DNA of 9,159 nucleotides from a bacterium (GTDB lineage Bacteria; Vulcanimicrobiota; CADAWZ01): NCBI GenBank assembly GCA_024409025.1, contig JAKSUM010000032.1, positions 1-9,159 of the forward strand, read 5' to 3'. The stretch's first letter is position 1. Every line of letters begins with the position of its first letter. Position numbers and translations under genes: made by a program. Positions 1-9,159 of this stretch are shown here, one piece after another. Below the pieces are notes generated by a model. The model did not search any database. It saw only the letters and a list, made by a program, of their open reading frames with translations, and was not told where the DNA came from.

Positions 1-233
1 GCGCCAAACGAAGGGGCTGGCGGCGGAGCCGGAGGTGCCGGAGGTGCGCCAAACGACGGGGCTGGCGGCGGAGCCGGAGGTGCCGGAGGTGCGCCAAACG
101 AAGGGGCTGGCGGCGGAGCCGGAGGTGCCGGAGGTGCGCCAAACGGAGGAGCTGACGGCGGTGCCGGCGGTGCCGGAGGTGCCGGAGGTGCGCCAAACGG
201 AGGGGCTGACGGCGGTGCCGGAGGAACTCCAAA
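1..233 (-). repeat. In-frame GC-rich tandem repeats encoding an FG/poly-proline tail
   Basis: Units begin at 1, 46, 91, 136 and 190. Units 1 and 3 (1-45 and 91-135) are identical, and unit 2 differs by one base at 57. The next unit is 54 bp (136-189), followed by degenerate 36-bp-class units to 233. Every length is a multiple of three, so the frame is kept. On the minus strand they encode FGAPPAPPAPPPAPS (15 residues, three copies), an 18-residue variant and a 12-residue FGVPPAPPSAPP. One unit is 34/45 G+C, far above the flanking gene. The near-identity suggests recent slippage or unequal exchange. The array continues past the window, so the copy number is unknown. Assemblies may collapse it. 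Confidence 0.95.
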
Positions 234-1973
234 CGAAGGGGCTTTCTGCCCAAACGCTGCAGATTGAGCCTGATTCATTACAGGAGTGGCGGACTGCACA
301 GGAGGCTCGTCCATCTGAGAGACATTGGGAAGCTTATAAACCTTTAACGGCTCCAGCTTCGGCCTTTCCCTCTTTGCCCTCATGAATGCCTGTATTTCAG
401 AGGCATTTGGCAAGGATATCCTTGTAGTTTCCGCAGATCCTTCAGCAAACACTGGCAGGGAAGGAGCGGCAGAAACCCTTGCTGACGTTATGTCTTCCGC
501 TATCTGAGCATTTGAGGAGAATCCATAGTGCTCCTCAAGCGCGCTTATCCACGAGGCATATTTTTCATTGACAGACGTAAAAAGCCCCTTCTGAGGCATG
601 ACAGGGGCAAAACCTGCCGCCTTTATGGCCGAAAGGGAATTTATCCTTTCATCAAGCGCTATTTTGGCGGCAATGGCATTTCCAAGACATGTAACTGTCT
701 TTGATTCGGTAAATTCTACGGGCCTGTTAAATATATTTGCAAGATATGAAGCAAAAAACGACCATTGATCAGTATTTGAGATAAACTTTATCTTTGAGAA
801 CGCCCCGCCAATAGACTGAATCCTCCTTAAGATGCCGTATATGGAAAAAGCGATACCTTCAAACATGGAATACATCATATCAAAAGGAGACGCTGAAAAA
901 TCCATTCCGGTAAAAGCCCCTGTCATGTCCGAATCCCAAAAAGGAGTCCTCTCTCCACAGAAATATGTGAAGCATGCGGCGCTTCCAGGCTGCATAAAGC
1001 GCTTCGACATTTCCGACTTAAACACCTCAGGATCAACTCCTACAGGGAACAGAGTCTTAAGGAAATGGCGTATTGCTCCGTTTCCGGCATTTGTCGTCCC
1101 TCCCCATATATATGACTCCTCATCGGCAAGATTATACCAAAGGCCAAGAGACGGCTCTCTGCGTGCAGGAAGAGCTCCTGAAAGAACCTGCACGTTTGAA
1201 GTGAAATCCATATTTATGCAGACCTCTTCAGCCGGAGCGACTCCTGCGCCAAGATTTGACGCCGAATAAGAAGAAGAGCCTACAATTACGGGAATCTTGT
1301 CTCCAAGTCCGCACATTCTCGCAATATTGCCTGAAAGATATCCGGCGACATCATACGGCGATCTTATCTGAGGCAGCTTGGCTTCAGAAATCTCAAGAAA
1401 TTTGAGTATTTCAAAATTCCATTCCTTCTCAATCACATCGAGCATTCCGGATGCGGAGGCAGTTGAGAAATCTTCACAAATCCTTCCGGAAAGAAGAGTA
1501 AGAATATAACTCTTCAGAGACATAATCTTATAGGAGGAAGCCATCTTCTCAAAATTTCTGCTCTTCATCCTAAACAGGCGCTCAAGAGGAGAAAAAGAGG
1601 AAACAGGGCATCCGCTAATCTCATAAAATTCAGCAGCCTTCTGCTGCAGCTGCTTTGCCTCAGCTCTTGTCAGGGATTTATTGTCCCCCCATAACGACAC
1701 CATAGAAAGAGGATTCCCTCCCCTGTCCACGCATATGAAGGAATGCGGTTCGGCAGAAAAACACAGAGCCGAAATCGTACCGCTCTTCCCCTTCAACTTA
1801 GCAATGGTCCTTCTTACGGCGTCAACGAACATCCTCATAACCTCATCAGGATGTATTTCCGTTACAAACCTTGAAAAAGGAATGAAAGAATGCGCCGAAG
1901 GATGAAGCTCGTCATCAAACACGCATGAATCAATGCCTGACAACGATATGTTCACAGTAAGAATATACTTCAT
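1..1973 (-). CDS. FGGY-fold carbohydrate kinase homologue, probable pseudokinase, with proline-rich repeat tail (3' end cut by window edge)
   Basis: An uninterrupted frame of 657 codons runs from ATG at 1973 off the left edge, so the C-terminus is missing. GAGGG lies 9 nt before the start. Residues 1-485 follow the two-domain FGGY layout. Scaffold motifs are kept: WGD (95-97), KSY (154-156), DFSTASASG (168-176), LP (200-201), GERTPFWD (340-347) and an LGNAIAA helix (430-436). The functional motifs seem lost. The N-terminal phosphate loop, normally DxGTT, reads NISLS (8-12). The catalytic Asp of the GxxD segment reads GSSSY (232-236). The GTSG loop reads DFTS (256-259). The adenosine GGGARS motif reads SNTDQWS (399-405). 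Residues 486-580 form a linker, and from 581 onward the chain is FGAPPAPP-type repeats. No signal peptide or membrane segment is visible, so it is probably cytosolic. The fold relation to xylulokinase or gluconokinase is fairly sure. Loss of activity is inferred from motifs recalled without an alignment. A binding or scaffold role is possible, but the function is unknown. Confidence 0.8.
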   Translation of the reverse strand, partial: MKYILTVNISLSGIDSCVFDDELHPSAHSFIPFSRFVTEIHPDEVMRMFVDAVRRTIAKLKGKSGTISALCFSAEPHSFICVDRGGNPLSMVSLWGDNKSLTRAEAKQLQQKAAEFYEISGCPVSSFSPLERLFRMKSRNFEKMASSYKIMSLKSYILTLLSGRICEDFSTASASGMLDVIEKEWNFEILKFLEISEAKLPQIRSPYDVAGYLSGNIARMCGLGDKIPVIVGSSSYSASNLGAGVAPAEEVCINMDFTSNVQVLSGALPARREPSLGLWYNLADEESYIWGGTTNAGNGAIRHFLKTLFPVGVDPEVFKSEMSKRFMQPGSAACFTYFCGERTPFWDSDMTGAFTGMDFSASPFDMMYSMFEGIAFSIYGILRRIQSIGGAFSKIKFISNTDQWSFFASYLANIFNRPVEFTESKTVTCLGNAIAAKIALDERINSLSAIKAAGFAPVMPQKGLFTSVNEKYASWISALEEHYGFSSNAQIAEDITSARVSAAPSLPVFAEGSAETTRISLPNASEIQAFMRAKRERPKLEPLKVYKLPNVSQMDEPPVQSATPVMNQAQSAAFGQKAPSFGVPPAPPSAPPFGAPPAPPAPPAPPSAPPFGAPPAPPAPPPAPSFGAPPAPPAPPPAPSFGAPPAPPAPPPAPSFG

Positions 1974-5284: not shown

Positions 5285-5773
5285 ATGCAGATTACAAGCA
5301 GCATGCCTTCACTTACTCCCTATCAGCTTTCAAGCGCTGAGAAGGTCATAAACGAGTTCAAAAATGTTGAAGCCCAGATGATAGCGGCAGACAATGACAC
5401 TGTCGATCTCAACTCGGCTGAAGGCGAAGTCAAGGTAGATTTCAAGCCCCTTAAAGAAGGAGCAAGAGAAAAATTCACAGGCGAGGTAACCTATAACAAG
5501 GAAACAAAAGAAGCCGAGAAGACTTTCGTTACAAAGAATTATGACAAGCCCGGAGGCGTAGGGGTAAACTACGCAAAGCACCAGCTTGAGGACGGGAGCA
5601 CCTATTACAGAAAAGACGACATGTATCAGGAATATCCTATGTACAGACAGATCGATGAGATCGTTGTAGGCAAAGACGGCCAGATCAAATCGTTTGAATC
5701 ATACGAGGAAAGAGATGAATTCTCAGGCTTCGGCGGCTTCGGCGGAGGCGACGAATTCTATATTGCCCACTAA
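5285..5773 (+). CDS. Uncharacterised acidic 162-residue protein with glycine-rich C-terminal end
   Basis: I do not recognise this protein. It is supported as a gene by GGAGG at 5275-5279, five bases before the ATG, by codon use like the neighbouring genes, and by a strong terminator directly after its stop. It has no signal peptide, no membrane segment, no cysteine and no tryptophan. Residues 1-45 are predicted to be largely helical (LSSAEKVINEFKNVEAQMIA). Residues about 46-140 look beta-rich, with many charged residues and aromatic strands (VDFKPL, TGEVTY, STYYRK, EIVVGKDGQIKSF). The end is SGFGGFGGGDEFYIAH, a flexible Gly/Phe stretch that might be a tail for binding or assembly. It lies 84 bp after the GH13 gene and may share its transcript, but nothing ties it to sugar metabolism. 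A cytosolic structural or accessory protein is possible. Confidence 0.8.
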   Translation: MQITSSMPSLTPYQLSSAEKVINEFKNVEAQMIAADNDTVDLNSAEGEVKVDFKPLKEGAREKFTGEVTYNKETKEAEKTFVTKNYDKPGGVGVNYAKHQLEDGSTYYRKDDMYQEYPMYRQIDEIVVGKDGQIKSFESYEERDEFSGFGGFGGGDEFYIAH

Positions 5774-5817: not shown

Positions 5818-6378
5818 CTATTTAATCATTCCCATAAACATCTGCTGCCTGTCAAAATCCCTGAACAGGCCGCCGCTTGAGACGGTAACAGTCTTTGTTC
5901 CTATCGACCGTATCCCTCTTGCCGTCATGCAGGAATGCTCGCCCTCTATACAGACTATTATGTCCGGAGTGTCCAGTATCATCTGGAGAACCGCCCTGAT
6001 GTCCTCTCCGATTCTCTCCTGAATCTGAAGCCTCTTAGTAACGGCATCGGCAATCCTTGCAATCTTTGAAATGCCTATAACCCTGCCGCATGGAATATAT
6101 CCCACGGCAACCTTCATATCGTACATAAGGGCTATGTGGTGCTCACAGAAGGAAAATACCTCTATATCCTTCAGAAAGACAAGATCCTTATCGCTGCACT
6201 CGAAGGTCTTATTGAATCTTCTTGCAATCTCCTCATTTGATATTGAGCAGTACTCAAGCCGCTCGGCCATCATTCTTGCGAACCTTTCAGGAGTATCTGC
6301 AAGCCCCTCTCTTTCAGGATTTTCCCCAACGGCCTCTATAATCAGCTTTGCAGCCTGTTTAAGCTTTTCCATGTCCAT
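5818..6378 (-). CDS. folE: GTP cyclohydrolase I
   Basis: FolE hydrolyses GTP to 7,8-dihydroneopterin triphosphate and formate, the first step of both folate and 7-deazaguanine synthesis. The 186-residue length is typical. Predicted zinc ligands are Cys78 and His81 in SFCEHH and Cys150 in GEHSCMTARG. His80 and His148 match the catalytic histidines. The segment VAVGYIPCGRVIGISKIARI (91-110) is the usual strand-turn-helix of the tunnelling fold. It is the last gene of the que operon, 4 nt after the queE stop, with a G-rich ribosome site 9 nt upstream. A second ATG two codons later is an alternative start. Its place in the operon suggests its main duty is to supply preQ1 synthesis; whether a second folE serves folate cannot be seen here. 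The Cys/His set marks the zinc type I enzyme, not FolE2. Confidence 0.96.
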   Translation of the reverse strand: MDMEKLKQAAKLIIEAVGENPEREGLADTPERFARMMAERLEYCSISNEEIARRFNKTFECSDKDLVFLKDIEVFSFCEHHIALMYDMKVAVGYIPCGRVIGISKIARIADAVTKRLQIQERIGEDIRAVLQMILDTPDIIVCIEGEHSCMTARGIRSIGTKTVTVSSGGLFRDFDRQQMFMGMIK

Positions 6379-6382
6379 ATGG

Positions 6383-7054
6383 CTATACCCCCCTCATCTC
6401 CGGCGGCCATATGTATTTATGCAGCTGGAGCTGAAGCCTGAATCGCTCAAGGCTATTTTTTCTCATGAATTCGACAATACGCTCCGGACTCAGCTTTCCG
6501 AATACCGGAGAGAAAAACAGTGCGGCATCTGACGGAATCAATTCGGCAATTTCAGCCGCTTTTTCAAGATCCTCCTCGGAGCCGACGACAAATTTGACGG
6601 CATCGCCCTTAATTAAAAGAGGATAGTTTGAAAGAAGCATCTTATCCGGAGATATCCCGCTTGAAGGACATTTAAAGTCCAGAGTATAGAAGCATCCGTC
6701 AGGCCTGTCGGTAAAAAGAGGCATGGAGCCGTTCGTCTCTATATTGGCTTCCATTCCTTCTGAACAGATCCTTCGGACAACCCCCTCTATATCGTGCATA
6801 AGAGGCTCTCCTCCGGTAAAAGTGATATTCCTTCTGCCGAAAGCGGACACAGCCTTACAGAGTCCGTCCTCGGAAAATATTTCCGAAGCGTCAGAATGAT
6901 TCTGGGAATAGACAGTGTCGCAGTAGGAGCACCTCAGATTGCAGCCGGCAAATCTTACAAATACGGCAAGCCTCCCTGCCCTCAGTCCCTCGCCGTCTAT
7001 GCTCTCAAAAATTTCCGTGACAGGAAAACGCCTATCTTTCATAAACAGCCACAT
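6383..7054 (-). CDS. queE: 7-carboxy-7-deazaguanine synthase, radical SAM enzyme
   Basis: QueE rearranges 6-carboxy-5,6,7,8-tetrahydropterin to 7-carboxy-7-deazaguanine. The iron-sulfur cluster motif is C-x3-C-x2-C (Cys38, Cys42, Cys45 in AGCNLRCSYCDT), the standard radical SAM spacing. The N-terminal EIFESIDGEGLRAG (14-27), the SAM-binding GGEP (81-84), IETNGS (105-110) and the C-terminal LQLHKYIWPP are family hallmarks. Length is 223 residues. The start at 7054 has AGGAG 10 nt upstream; an ATG at 7042 would give 219 residues but is less well placed. The gene begins inside the 3' end of queD, with a 23-bp overlap, which implies translational coupling. Confidence 0.96.
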   Translation of the reverse strand: MWLFMKDRRFPVTEIFESIDGEGLRAGRLAVFVRFAGCNLRCSYCDTVYSQNHSDASEIFSEDGLCKAVSAFGRRNITFTGGEPLMHDIEGVVRRICSEGMEANIETNGSMPLFTDRPDGCFYTLDFKCPSSGISPDKMLLSNYPLLIKGDAVKFVVGSEEDLEKAAEIAELIPSDAALFFSPVFGKLSPERIVEFMRKNSLERFRLQLQLHKYIWPPEMRGV

Positions 7055-7361
7055 TCCCTTCAGACTCCTGCACGGATACCCTCACGCATCCTGGAATCCT
7101 GTCGCAAATCCACTTAGCCATATTCTCCGCAGTAGGATTTATATCGCCAAGAATATCATTTATATGGGCATGGTCAAGCTGCATTACCGTCTTTTTGATA
7201 TGCGTAAAATCCATGACCATTCCGTCAGCATTTAATTCCTCGCTCTGAACAGTCACATGGATAATCCAATTATGACCATGAACATTAGAGCATTTGCTCT
7301 CATATGAAAGCTTAAGGGAGTGGGATGCCGATATCTCTATTCGTTTTGTTACTGTATACAT
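7032..7361 (-). CDS. queD: 6-carboxytetrahydropterin synthase
   Basis: QueD converts 7,8-dihydroneopterin triphosphate to 6-carboxytetrahydropterin. This short form (109 residues) has the zinc histidines His14 (SASHSL) plus His28 and His30 (HGH). It has the catalytic cysteine Cys24 in CSNVHGHNW; the C-x3-HGH spacing favours QueD over a pyruvoyl-type pterin synthase. LDHAHIND (62-69), NPTAENMAKW (75-84) and Glu99 are also typical. Its ATG follows the queC stop directly (TAGATG), and only a weak ribosome site precedes it. Expression therefore probably depends on ribosomes finishing queC. Its end overlaps queE by 23 bp. Confidence 0.95.
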   Translation of the reverse strand: MYTVTKRIEISASHSLKLSYESKCSNVHGHNWIIHVTVQSEELNADGMVMDFTHIKKTVMQLDHAHINDILGDINPTAENMAKWICDRIPGCVRVSVQESEGNVAVYER

Positions 7362-8054
7362 CTAATTGCCCAGCGCCGGATCCTTTACATTATTTGCCCT
7401 GAAAGCCTCAGCCCTGTCAATACAGGTACCGCATTCACCGCAGGGCATCTCATCGCCCTCATAACAGCTCCATGTCAATTCATAGGGGGTGCCAATCTCA
7501 AGGCCTTTTTTTACGACCCCAGCCTTATTTGTTCCGGCAAACGGAGCGCATATGGATGCCTTACCGTATGTGCCGATATTAATCGCCTTCCCTATTGCCT
7601 CGACAAAATCCATGCTGCAGTCCGCATATGCGTTTCCGGCGGCATCGTCCGCATGTGCCCCGATATAGAGAAGCACATCCTCGCCAGCATATATGCTGCA
7701 TGCAAGAGATGCCGCGGCAGAAAGCATAAGGCCGTTTCTGTAGGGAACATATGTGGCAACCATTCCCTCACCGTCCTCCGCAATCTGCTCCGCATAGCTT
7801 TTATGCTTGATCTCCTCCTTGGAGCCGGAAAGAAGCGGGCATGAGGAATAAGCCATTATCGCTGAAAGATCAAATTCATACTGCTTTATACCGTAAAAGG
7901 AAGCCAGCTTTCTTGCGCACTCAAGCTCCCTGCTGTGCTTCTGACCGTAAAAAACAGACATTGCGGACACATTTTCCGCCCCATGCTCCTTCACGGCAAG
8001 CGAAAGGCATGTCGAGGAATCAACTCCTCCGCTTGACAATACAACCGCCTTCAT
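7362..8054 (-). CDS. queC: 7-cyano-7-deazaguanine (preQ0) synthase
   Basis: QueC uses ATP and ammonia to turn 7-carboxy-7-deazaguanine into preQ0. The PP-loop ATP motif SGGVDS is at residues 8-13. FYGQKHSRE (35-43), TYVPYRN (101-107) and GAHADDAAGNAYADC (132-146) are conserved family blocks. Four cysteines near the end (197, 205, 208, 211) form the zinc site. I start at 8054, giving 230 residues, because MKAVVLSSGG is the expected N-terminus and AAGGAG lies 8 nt upstream. The frame stays open to an ATG at 8222, but that extension lies across queF and has no family similarity. The start is 4 nt after the queF stop. Confidence 0.96.
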   Translation of the reverse strand: MKAVVLSSGGVDSSTCLSLAVKEHGAENVSAMSVFYGQKHSRELECARKLASFYGIKQYEFDLSAIMAYSSCPLLSGSKEEIKHKSYAEQIAEDGEGMVATYVPYRNGLMLSAAASLACSIYAGEDVLLYIGAHADDAAGNAYADCSMDFVEAIGKAINIGTYGKASICAPFAGTNKAGVVKKGLEIGTPYELTWSCYEGDEMPCGECGTCIDRAEAFRANNVKDPALGN

Positions 8055-8058
8055 GCCC

Positions 8059-8538
8059 CTATCTCCTTCCCCTGTCAATAGAAGACCACAGCCTGTCGGA
8101 TGCCTTCTGCTCATACATGGTTCCCTTTCTGCCGTAAAGGGCGAGAGGATATATGCTGATTCCGCCTCTCGGAGTGAATATGCCCTCAACCTCAATGTAC
8201 TTTGGATCGAGCAGCTTAACAAGATCCTTCATTATTATATTGCAGACGTCCTCATGGAAGTCGCCATGATTGCGGAAGCTGAAAAGATAAAGCTTAAGTG
8301 ATTTGCTCTCGACAAGCTTCTTGTCAGGAATATAGCTTATGCGTATTTCAGCAAAGTCAGGCTGCCCTGTCTTAGGACAGAGGCTTGTGAATTCAGGGCA
8401 GTTGAATGTCACCATATAGTCGTTATCCTCATGCTTATTGAAAAAGAACTCAAGGATATCGGGATCATAATCATATTTGTATTTCGTCTTCTGGTTTCCT
8501 AAAAGCGTTACGCCTTTAAGGTCTTCCTCGCTTCTCAT
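8059..8538 (-). CDS. queF: NADPH-dependent preQ0 reductase (7-cyano-7-deazaguanine reductase)
   Basis: QueF reduces the nitrile of preQ0 to the aminomethyl group of preQ1, the base exchanged into tRNA by Tgt. At 159 residues it is the short, single-domain type. Cys54 in [15 protein letters not shown] is the thioimide-forming cysteine and Asp61 the likely proton donor. ESKSLK (77-82) is the QueF signature for NADPH and substrate binding, followed by [13 protein letters not shown] (88-100). It is the first gene of the operon. GAGG lies 6 nt before the ATG. The groEL terminator separates it from groEL, so a promoter must lie in about 8539-8604. I see only CATAAT (8578-8573, minus strand) as a -10 candidate, with no convincing -35. 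Confidence 0.96.
8063..8068 (-). promoter_or_regulatory. Ribosome binding site deciding the queC start
   Basis: AAGGAG on the minus strand lies 8 nt before the ATG at 8054 and inside the last codons of queF. It supports the short start of queC over the upstream ATG at 8222. Confidence 0.85.
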
Positions 8539-8654: not shown

Positions 8655-9159
8655 TTAATACATTCCCATTCCGCCGTCCATTCCGGGCATCGGAGGAGCT
8701 GCGGGAGCCTTCTTCTCAGGCTTCTCGGCGATAAGGGTCTCGGTCGTGAGCATCATAGCGGCAATGCTTGCTGCGTTCTGGAGGGAGGATCTCGTTACCT
8801 TTACGGGGTCAACGACTCCTGCCTTGAACATATCAGTGAACTGATCTCTGAGAGCATCATATCCGTTTCCTGCTTCGAGGGTCTTTACCTTCTCTACTAT
8901 TACGGAGCCTTCCTTGCCGGCGTTGTTGGCGATCTGGCGGAGAGGTTCTTCAAGAGCCTTCTTGACTATTTCGACACCGATCTTTTCTTCGCCTTCACAG
9001 TCGCATTCCACATTCTTGAGAATGTTGAGGAATGCCGTTCCGCCGCCTGCTACGATACCTTCCTCGACAGCAGCTCTTGTTGCGGAGAGGGCGTCTTCCA
9101 TTCTGTGCTTCTTTTCCTTGAGCTCAGTTTCAGTGGCAGCTCCGACCTTTATGACGGCA
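8655..9159 (-). CDS. groEL: Chaperonin GroEL, C-terminal part (5' end outside window)
   Basis: This is the last 167 residues of the 60-kDa chaperonin that folds proteins in an ATP-driven ring with GroES. The frame is open to the window edge and begins [19 protein letters not shown], the usual segment at the end of the apical/intermediate region. [20 protein letters not shown] and the helix around [19 protein letters not shown] are equatorial-domain signatures. ATG at 9101 is an internal methionine, not the start. The tail ends [11 protein letters not shown], the common Gly/Met-rich disordered end. groES, if present in the usual order, would be upstream, outside the window. No CIRCE element can be sought because the promoter is not included. 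Confidence 0.97.

Follow-up and report, generated by a model that had tools for sequence, protein, structure and literature searches.

A tailed FGGY-fold protein with replaced catalytic residues, a probable pseudokinase conserved in one bacterial family

Carbohydrate kinases of the FGGY family, such as gluconokinase (GntK), xylulokinase (XylB) and glycerol kinase (GlpK), are the described enzymes closest to a gene that we analyzed on a 9,159-nucleotide stretch of bacterial DNA (the window: bases 1-9159 of contig C183, from a 1.46-megabase draft genome that is 69% complete). The window protein resembles these kinases in its predicted two-domain FGGY fold and in matching both Pfam domains, FGGY_N and FGGY_C. 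It differs from them in that the catalytic Asp, the phosphate-loop Asp, the glycine of the GTSG loop and the GG pair of the adenosine motif are all replaced, and in carrying a long proline-rich tail; its scores also lie far below the NCBIfam cut-offs for GntK (178.1 vs. 648.55 bits) and XylB (162.5 vs. 380.25 bits). Sugar-kinase folds have been reused without catalysis in the sensors Gal3 and fructokinase-like FLN, which have the GHMP and PfkB folds, respectively, as opposed to the FGGY fold of the window protein. A eukaryotic FGGY-fold protein placed in a structural array offers a likeness by fold only, and we know of no comparable tail in that protein. No FGGY pseudokinase was described in the open-access literature that we searched, judged by title. 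The nearest architecture is found in three sister proteins, P0016, P0017 and P0018, which share the domain order, the linker motif region and the tail with the window protein (and, for P0016, a neighbouring FKBP gene), and differ from it in having kept the catalytic residues.

Read on the minus strand, the gene has its start codon at 1973 and a frame that remains open, with no stop codon, to base 3 at the contig edge. The protein as present is thus 657 residues long (657+), its 3' end being cut by the edge of the contig. A previous reading made from the letters of the window (the sequence-only reading) had proposed a probable FGGY pseudokinase at 750 to 1973. There is indeed a gene in this interval; the strand had been left unstated and is the minus strand, the plus strand of 750-1973 containing many stops. 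The end at 750 has to be abandoned, as the interval covers the first 408 residues only. The frame described as full-length had overlooked about 250 further residues, comprising the rest of FGGY_C, a linker, the motif KLEPLKVYKLPNV and the proline-rich tail. All seven sequence motifs, four replaced and three kept, do sit at the residue numbers given there. The features of the gene are:

3 to 1973, minus strand: whole gene, FGGY pseudokinase plus linker plus proline-rich tail, 657 residues, open at the contig edge (predicted)
522 to 1973, minus strand: FGGY core, residues 1-484; AlphaFold2 predicted local distance difference test (pLDDT) 93.7, predicted template modelling score (pTM) 0.93
1248 to 1859, minus strand: Pfam FGGY_N, residues 39-242, E 5.1e-31
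657 to 1184, minus strand: Pfam FGGY_C, residues 264-439, E 5.6e-16
1938 to 1952, minus strand: phosphate-loop site, residues 8-12, NISLS; DIGTT in gluconokinase matches, DIGTG in the sister lineage
1683 to 1691, minus strand: W95-G96-D97 (WGD); W and D kept in 7/7 family and 3/3 sister rows, G96 being S in some
1446 to 1472, minus strand: scaffold motif kept, residues 168-176, DFSTASASG
1266 to 1280, minus strand: catalytic-Asp site, residues 232-236, GSSSY; Asp235 replaced by Ser in 8/8 family rows, Asp in 3/3 sister rows
1197 to 1208, minus strand: GTSG-loop site, residues 256-259, DFTS; GFTG or GFTA in the sister lineage
933 to 956, minus strand: GERTPFWD kept, residues 340-347; GERTPFW or GERTPIW in the 9 rows inspected
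759 to 779, minus strand: adenosine-motif site, residues 399-405, SNTDQWS; GGGFHWN, GGAFHWK and GGGFYWK in the sister lineage
321 to 359, minus strand: conserved short linear motif separating the core from the tail, residues 539-551, KLEPLKVYKLPNV, consensus KLxxLxVYK[LM]P[ND][IV]
3 to 320, minus strand: proline-rich tail, residues 552-657, 42% Pro, with a 45-base-pair tandem repeat and SFGAPPAPPAPPPAP units, predicted to be disordered and cut by the contig edge

Membership of the FGGY family is clear from both Pfam domains, which score above their gathering thresholds, and from the AlphaFold2 model, which gives a confident and complete FGGY fold for the core; the alignment and structure prediction proposed in the sequence-only reading bear it out on this point. 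The closest folds in Foldseek were 3gbt/3ll3 and glycerol kinases, with 21-22% identity in the best rows. Residues 488-657 mostly have a pLDDT below 50.

The gene is present in 4/4 genomes of the bacterial family (G000, the window's own, together with G001, G002 and G003, which are the isolates RUG13696, RUG13580 and CO.B36.metabat-bins.133) and in G004, the only genome from another family of the class, i.e. in 5/5. The other 53 genomes of the phylum in our sample gave matches in 14, at 18-28% identity. Protein searches of 5.8 billion sequences yielded at least 4 family rows and at least 3 sister rows; each search scored roughly the 8000 best candidates, and more relatives may exist. The 8 family rows, the window included, represent 6 distinct sequences, with P0002 identical to the G003 row at 557/560 positions and P0136 to the G002 row at 560/560. 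Among the sister rows, P0016 is the G004 protein and is named 'Candidatus Eremiobacteraeota bacterium' in the database, while P0017 is named 'Candidatus Xenobiia bacterium LiM19'. P0016 also falls under the NCBIfam kinase cut-offs.

To describe which residues were lost, we aligned 7 family rows and 3 sister rows with 36 other FGGY proteins, not individually characterized, picked from 129 non-family matches listed (one search giving the best 120 of 142), and followed the 46 core columns in which these 36 reach at least 85% identity. The pattern goes beyond chance: in ten of the 46 (D8, T11, K15, D235, G256, W303, L357, A369, G399 and G400) all 7 family rows have lost the residue that all 3 sister rows keep, while the reverse was seen in a single column, L223. 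Twelve columns were kept in all rows, among them W95, D97, W185, G232, P344, W346, E372 and G431; 8 were lost in both family and sister rows, including T257, and 15 were mixed, such as G10 of the phosphate loop, kept by 2/7 family rows. Asp8, Lys15, the catalytic Asp235, Gly256 and the GG pair of the adenosine motif are replaced in all 8 family rows. The replaced residues correspond to sites that bind the phosphates of adenosine triphosphate (ATP) and that deprotonate the sugar. At the catalytic column, the window protein and 7/7 family rows have Ser235, compared to Asp in 36/36 comparison rows. The window protein further lacks the Asp and Thr of the phosphate-loop DxGT (N8 and L11) and the adenosine GG (S399-N400). 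A recheck of 13 positions in 12 rows, with P0136 added, again placed the losses in all family rows and the kept residues in the sister rows. The same losses thus occur in orthologues from 3/3 other family genomes and in protein-database rows, answering the earlier call for homologues that share the substitutions. Two details of the earlier description need adjusting. Loss of the GTSG loop holds for G256, whose change to D is specific to the family, but not for T257, whose change to F is also found in the sister lineage alongside catalytic residues; since T257 is lost in both sets of rows, the loop had changed before the rise of the family. The statement that only catalytic sites had changed was too strong, the conserved W303, L357 and A369 having changed as well.

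PMC4880283 describes much lower ATP hydrolysis with D-ribulose when D8, T11 or D221 of SePSK is mutated, and similarly a greatly reduced activity for E. coli xylulose and glycerol kinase. Given N8, L11 and S235 at the equivalent sites (matched by motif, SePSK being absent from the alignment) and the missing GG pair, we infer that phosphotransfer has probably been lost.

In the tree, from which G027 and G011 (misframed rows) and the glycerol kinase G004d were excluded, the 7 family rows group as a single clade (100/100), nested with the 3 sister rows in a larger clade (100/100). It is unsure whether the sister rows make up a separate clade: their fork has a support of 68/35, compared to 87/67 in an earlier tree that included G004d, G027 and G011. 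The stem of the family measures 1.02 changes per column and branches inside it are at most 0.28, in keeping with rapid change at first and restored constraint afterwards. The ratio of nonsynonymous to synonymous changes (dN/dS, NG86) that the sequence-only reading had suggested measuring came to 0.12 for the core of the G002/G003 pair (dN 0.119, dS 1.03), indicating purifying selection in the one usable pair; 7 of the 10 core pairs gave no dS and two gave about 1.9 and 2.0, hence the use of G002/G003 alone. Six neighbouring genes of the same pair have dN/dS values of 0.09-0.41. The gene therefore has its catalytic residues lost in an orthologue group that is conserved and under selection. With the same substitutions in 8/8 family rows of a single clade, a confident FGGY fold, an open core in all rows and a copy in 4/4 family genomes, the earlier proposal of a pseudokinase that is not decaying is strongly supported by the sequences compared.

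The tail is the second distinctive property of these proteins. It follows the linker motif in 10/10 rows checked, with 29-47% Pro compared to 4-5% in the core and 3-12% charged residues (the tails of the window, G001 and G003 are incomplete), and its repeat units differ between lineages. G002 (798 residues) and P0136 (773 residues) are identical over the first 560 residues and differ in tail length. A DNA pattern for the linker motif was found once each in G000, G001, G003 and G004, always in the FGGY gene, and was absent from G002 (VYRMPNI); outside the FGGY gene it had no match in the 5 genomes. The equivalent region reads VYKLPDI in P0016 and has diverged to KKIQLPDL in P0017/P0018. As all sister rows have both tail and motif region, the tail was most simply, and likely, gained before the catalytic residues were lost; that loss likely occurred once, at the base of the family, with the sister lineage keeping the catalytic residues and a putative enzyme-type architecture.

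Some further observations concern the tail. A six-proline codon pattern was discarded as a tail marker, since poly-Gly on the opposite strand matches it too and a backward control gave the same counts in the 5 genomes; 12/26 of its matches in G002 and 0/4 in G000 lie inside the FGGY gene. Contig C242, which has one run of this pattern, was rejected as a continuation of the tail, as the run seems to encode poly-Gly where another gene ends, and k-mers of 21, 25 and 31 bases from the first 300 bases of the window were not shared with the other loci compared (a comparison of loci, not of whole genomes). Within the tail repeat, the reading frame shifts in the G003 copy (L034, 4605-7006) and stays intact in the near-identical P0002; the shift may reflect repeat slippage, phase variation or an assembly error. 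Tail units of the window (3-320) and of P0001 contain FG dipeptides (SFGAPPAPP), and P0001 scores just above the Pfam cut-off for nucleoporin FG repeats (33.3 vs. 32.2 bits), presumably because of its composition.

Taken together, the intact fold, the evidence of selection, the tail and the linker motif speak for a non-catalytic job, and we infer a role either as a scaffold acting through the tail or as a sugar sensor. The reading that we favour, and consider somewhat probable, is that the protein acts without catalysis, as a scaffold or adaptor, and would recruit partner proteins through its proline-rich tail. An FGGY kinase of the class containing Candidatus Xenobiia would first have acquired a proline-rich tail, and in one family catalysis would then have been lost once, with the protein retained. 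The cleft, with W95 and D97 kept, may still bind a ligand or present a protein face, while the tail would offer many proline sites on a flexible arm; linker motif and tail follow the core in both family and sister lineage. Such a tail is compatible with multivalent recruitment or with a flexible spacer, and recalls the polyproline arms of eukaryotic formins and VASP-type proteins.

Several points weigh against this reading. Tail units turn over rapidly and it is mainly their composition that is conserved, which a spacer fits as well as a recruiter. The tail is older than the loss of catalysis and is therefore no proof of a scaffold on its own. A proline-binding partner of the GYF_2 type was rejected: a search confined to this proline-binding domain gave 1 match in G004 and none in the family genomes (4, one of them 69% complete). 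Docking of the linker motif into the core or cleft was likewise rejected, with no confident prediction and a pLDDT below 50 there. The evidence for selection comes from a single pair whose dS (1.03) is already high. The sister proteins are putative kinases whose GTSG loop is also altered; the 3 sister rows, moreover, represent 2 lineages, P0017 and P0018 agreeing at 462/480 core positions (96%).

The alternative that survives best, though unlikely, is a sugar sensor, in which the core would bind a sugar or sugar phosphate without phosphorylating it and signal the ligand-driven closure of its domains through the tail. In favour of this, 7/7 family rows keep W95 and D97 of the WxDx(R/K) motif, which we take to face the sugar. 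Closure of FGGY kinases upon sugar binding is described in PMC3245297. Set against this, the catalytic Asp, here Ser, also touches the sugar (D221 of SePSK contacts D-ribulose, PMC4880283), and no neighbouring gene in the loci read hints at a sensed sugar.

We consider it quite unlikely that N8, D15, S235 and D256 form a different active site, acting on a nucleotide or another substrate. All 7 family rows share these residues and S369, none of which occurs in the 3 sister rows, and pseudokinases with unexpected chemistry exist, SelO being an example. Invariance is common, however, with 167/478 core columns invariant in these rows, and both adenosine-motif glycines are gone, their replacements being variable (S/N and N/S/T). 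A sugar kinase of unusual sequence, with other residues supplying catalysis, is more improbable still: at 21-22% identity to solved kinases an alternative site could be missed, but Ser occupies the catalytic column in 7/7 rows vs. Asp in 36/36, and Asp8 and the GG pair are lost too. Decay of a functionless gene, for which the long branch to the family and the frameshifted G003 copy might speak, is the least credible explanation and was rejected on gene presence, the dN/dS of one pair and branch lengths, which shorten after the loss; the core is open throughout, the G003 shift falls in a repeat that P0002 reads through to a proline-rich end, and neither frequent core frameshifts nor a dN/dS near 1 were seen in the rows compared.

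A divergent FKBP prolyl-isomerase gene adjoins the FGGY gene in 4/4 relative loci (G001, G002, G003 and G004), two of these neighbours having a Pfam match. The genome to which the window belongs has its FKBP gene on contig C184, away from the FGGY gene, which here adjoins a dihydropyrimidinase gene. Orthology of the family genes with the G004 gene is supported, backed also by this neighbour. FKBP is not favoured as a physical partner, as the FKBP proteins begin with an apparent signal sequence and the FGGY protein, by reading, does not. Downstream of the FGGY gene, G002 (L035, 11660-13102) and G003 (L034, 7031-8485) encode a protein of a 480-residue type whose first half reads as low complexity, with no Pfam match for the G002 protein; the downstream protein of G004 (L036, 5881-8022) passes the cut-off for a PQQ-type beta-propeller and has matches to zinc ribbon and protein kinase that fall short of it.

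One other FGGY gene was found per family genome (4/4, the own genome being 69% complete): on contig C180 of G000 (L059), at L068 (241-1668, minus strand), at L069 (7682-9106, plus strand) and at L026. In this gene Asp8 is replaced (Q, E, E, E), as is the second glycine of the GG pair, but the catalytic Asp, G256 and G399 are intact. Genes reading as dxs, ispA and xseA lie nearby in G001 and G002. With both FGGY copies found in the family altered at ATP-site residues, neither has a fully canonical ATP site. Elsewhere in the window, a compact set on the minus strand (5818-8538) reads as folE, queE, queD, queC and queF, of the queuosine precursor pathway, and adjoins what reads as the end of groEL (8655-9158, minus strand); an open reading frame of 162 residues on the plus strand (5285-5773) has no Pfam or NCBIfam match.

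As a rule, pseudoenzymes are recognized only once the change is complete. In this case present-day lineages reveal the sequence of steps, tailed with catalytic residues in the sister lineage and tailed and stripped of them in the family, and the adjoining FKBP gene of the 4/4 relative loci accompanies both tailed forms. The transition from enzyme to non-enzyme is therefore directly testable with two expressible proteins. Domain-based annotation may label the family proteins sugar kinases. As a tentative and more doubtful extension, a whole bacterial family may have remodelled an actin-fold sugar kinase as a structural hub, the polyproline arm being added first, to a working FGGY kinase, catalysis being discarded once, and fold, motif and arm being kept; as far as our searches go, this family of FGGY pseudokinases would be the first in bacteria, and its ancestral, enzyme-type architecture would survive in the sister lineage.
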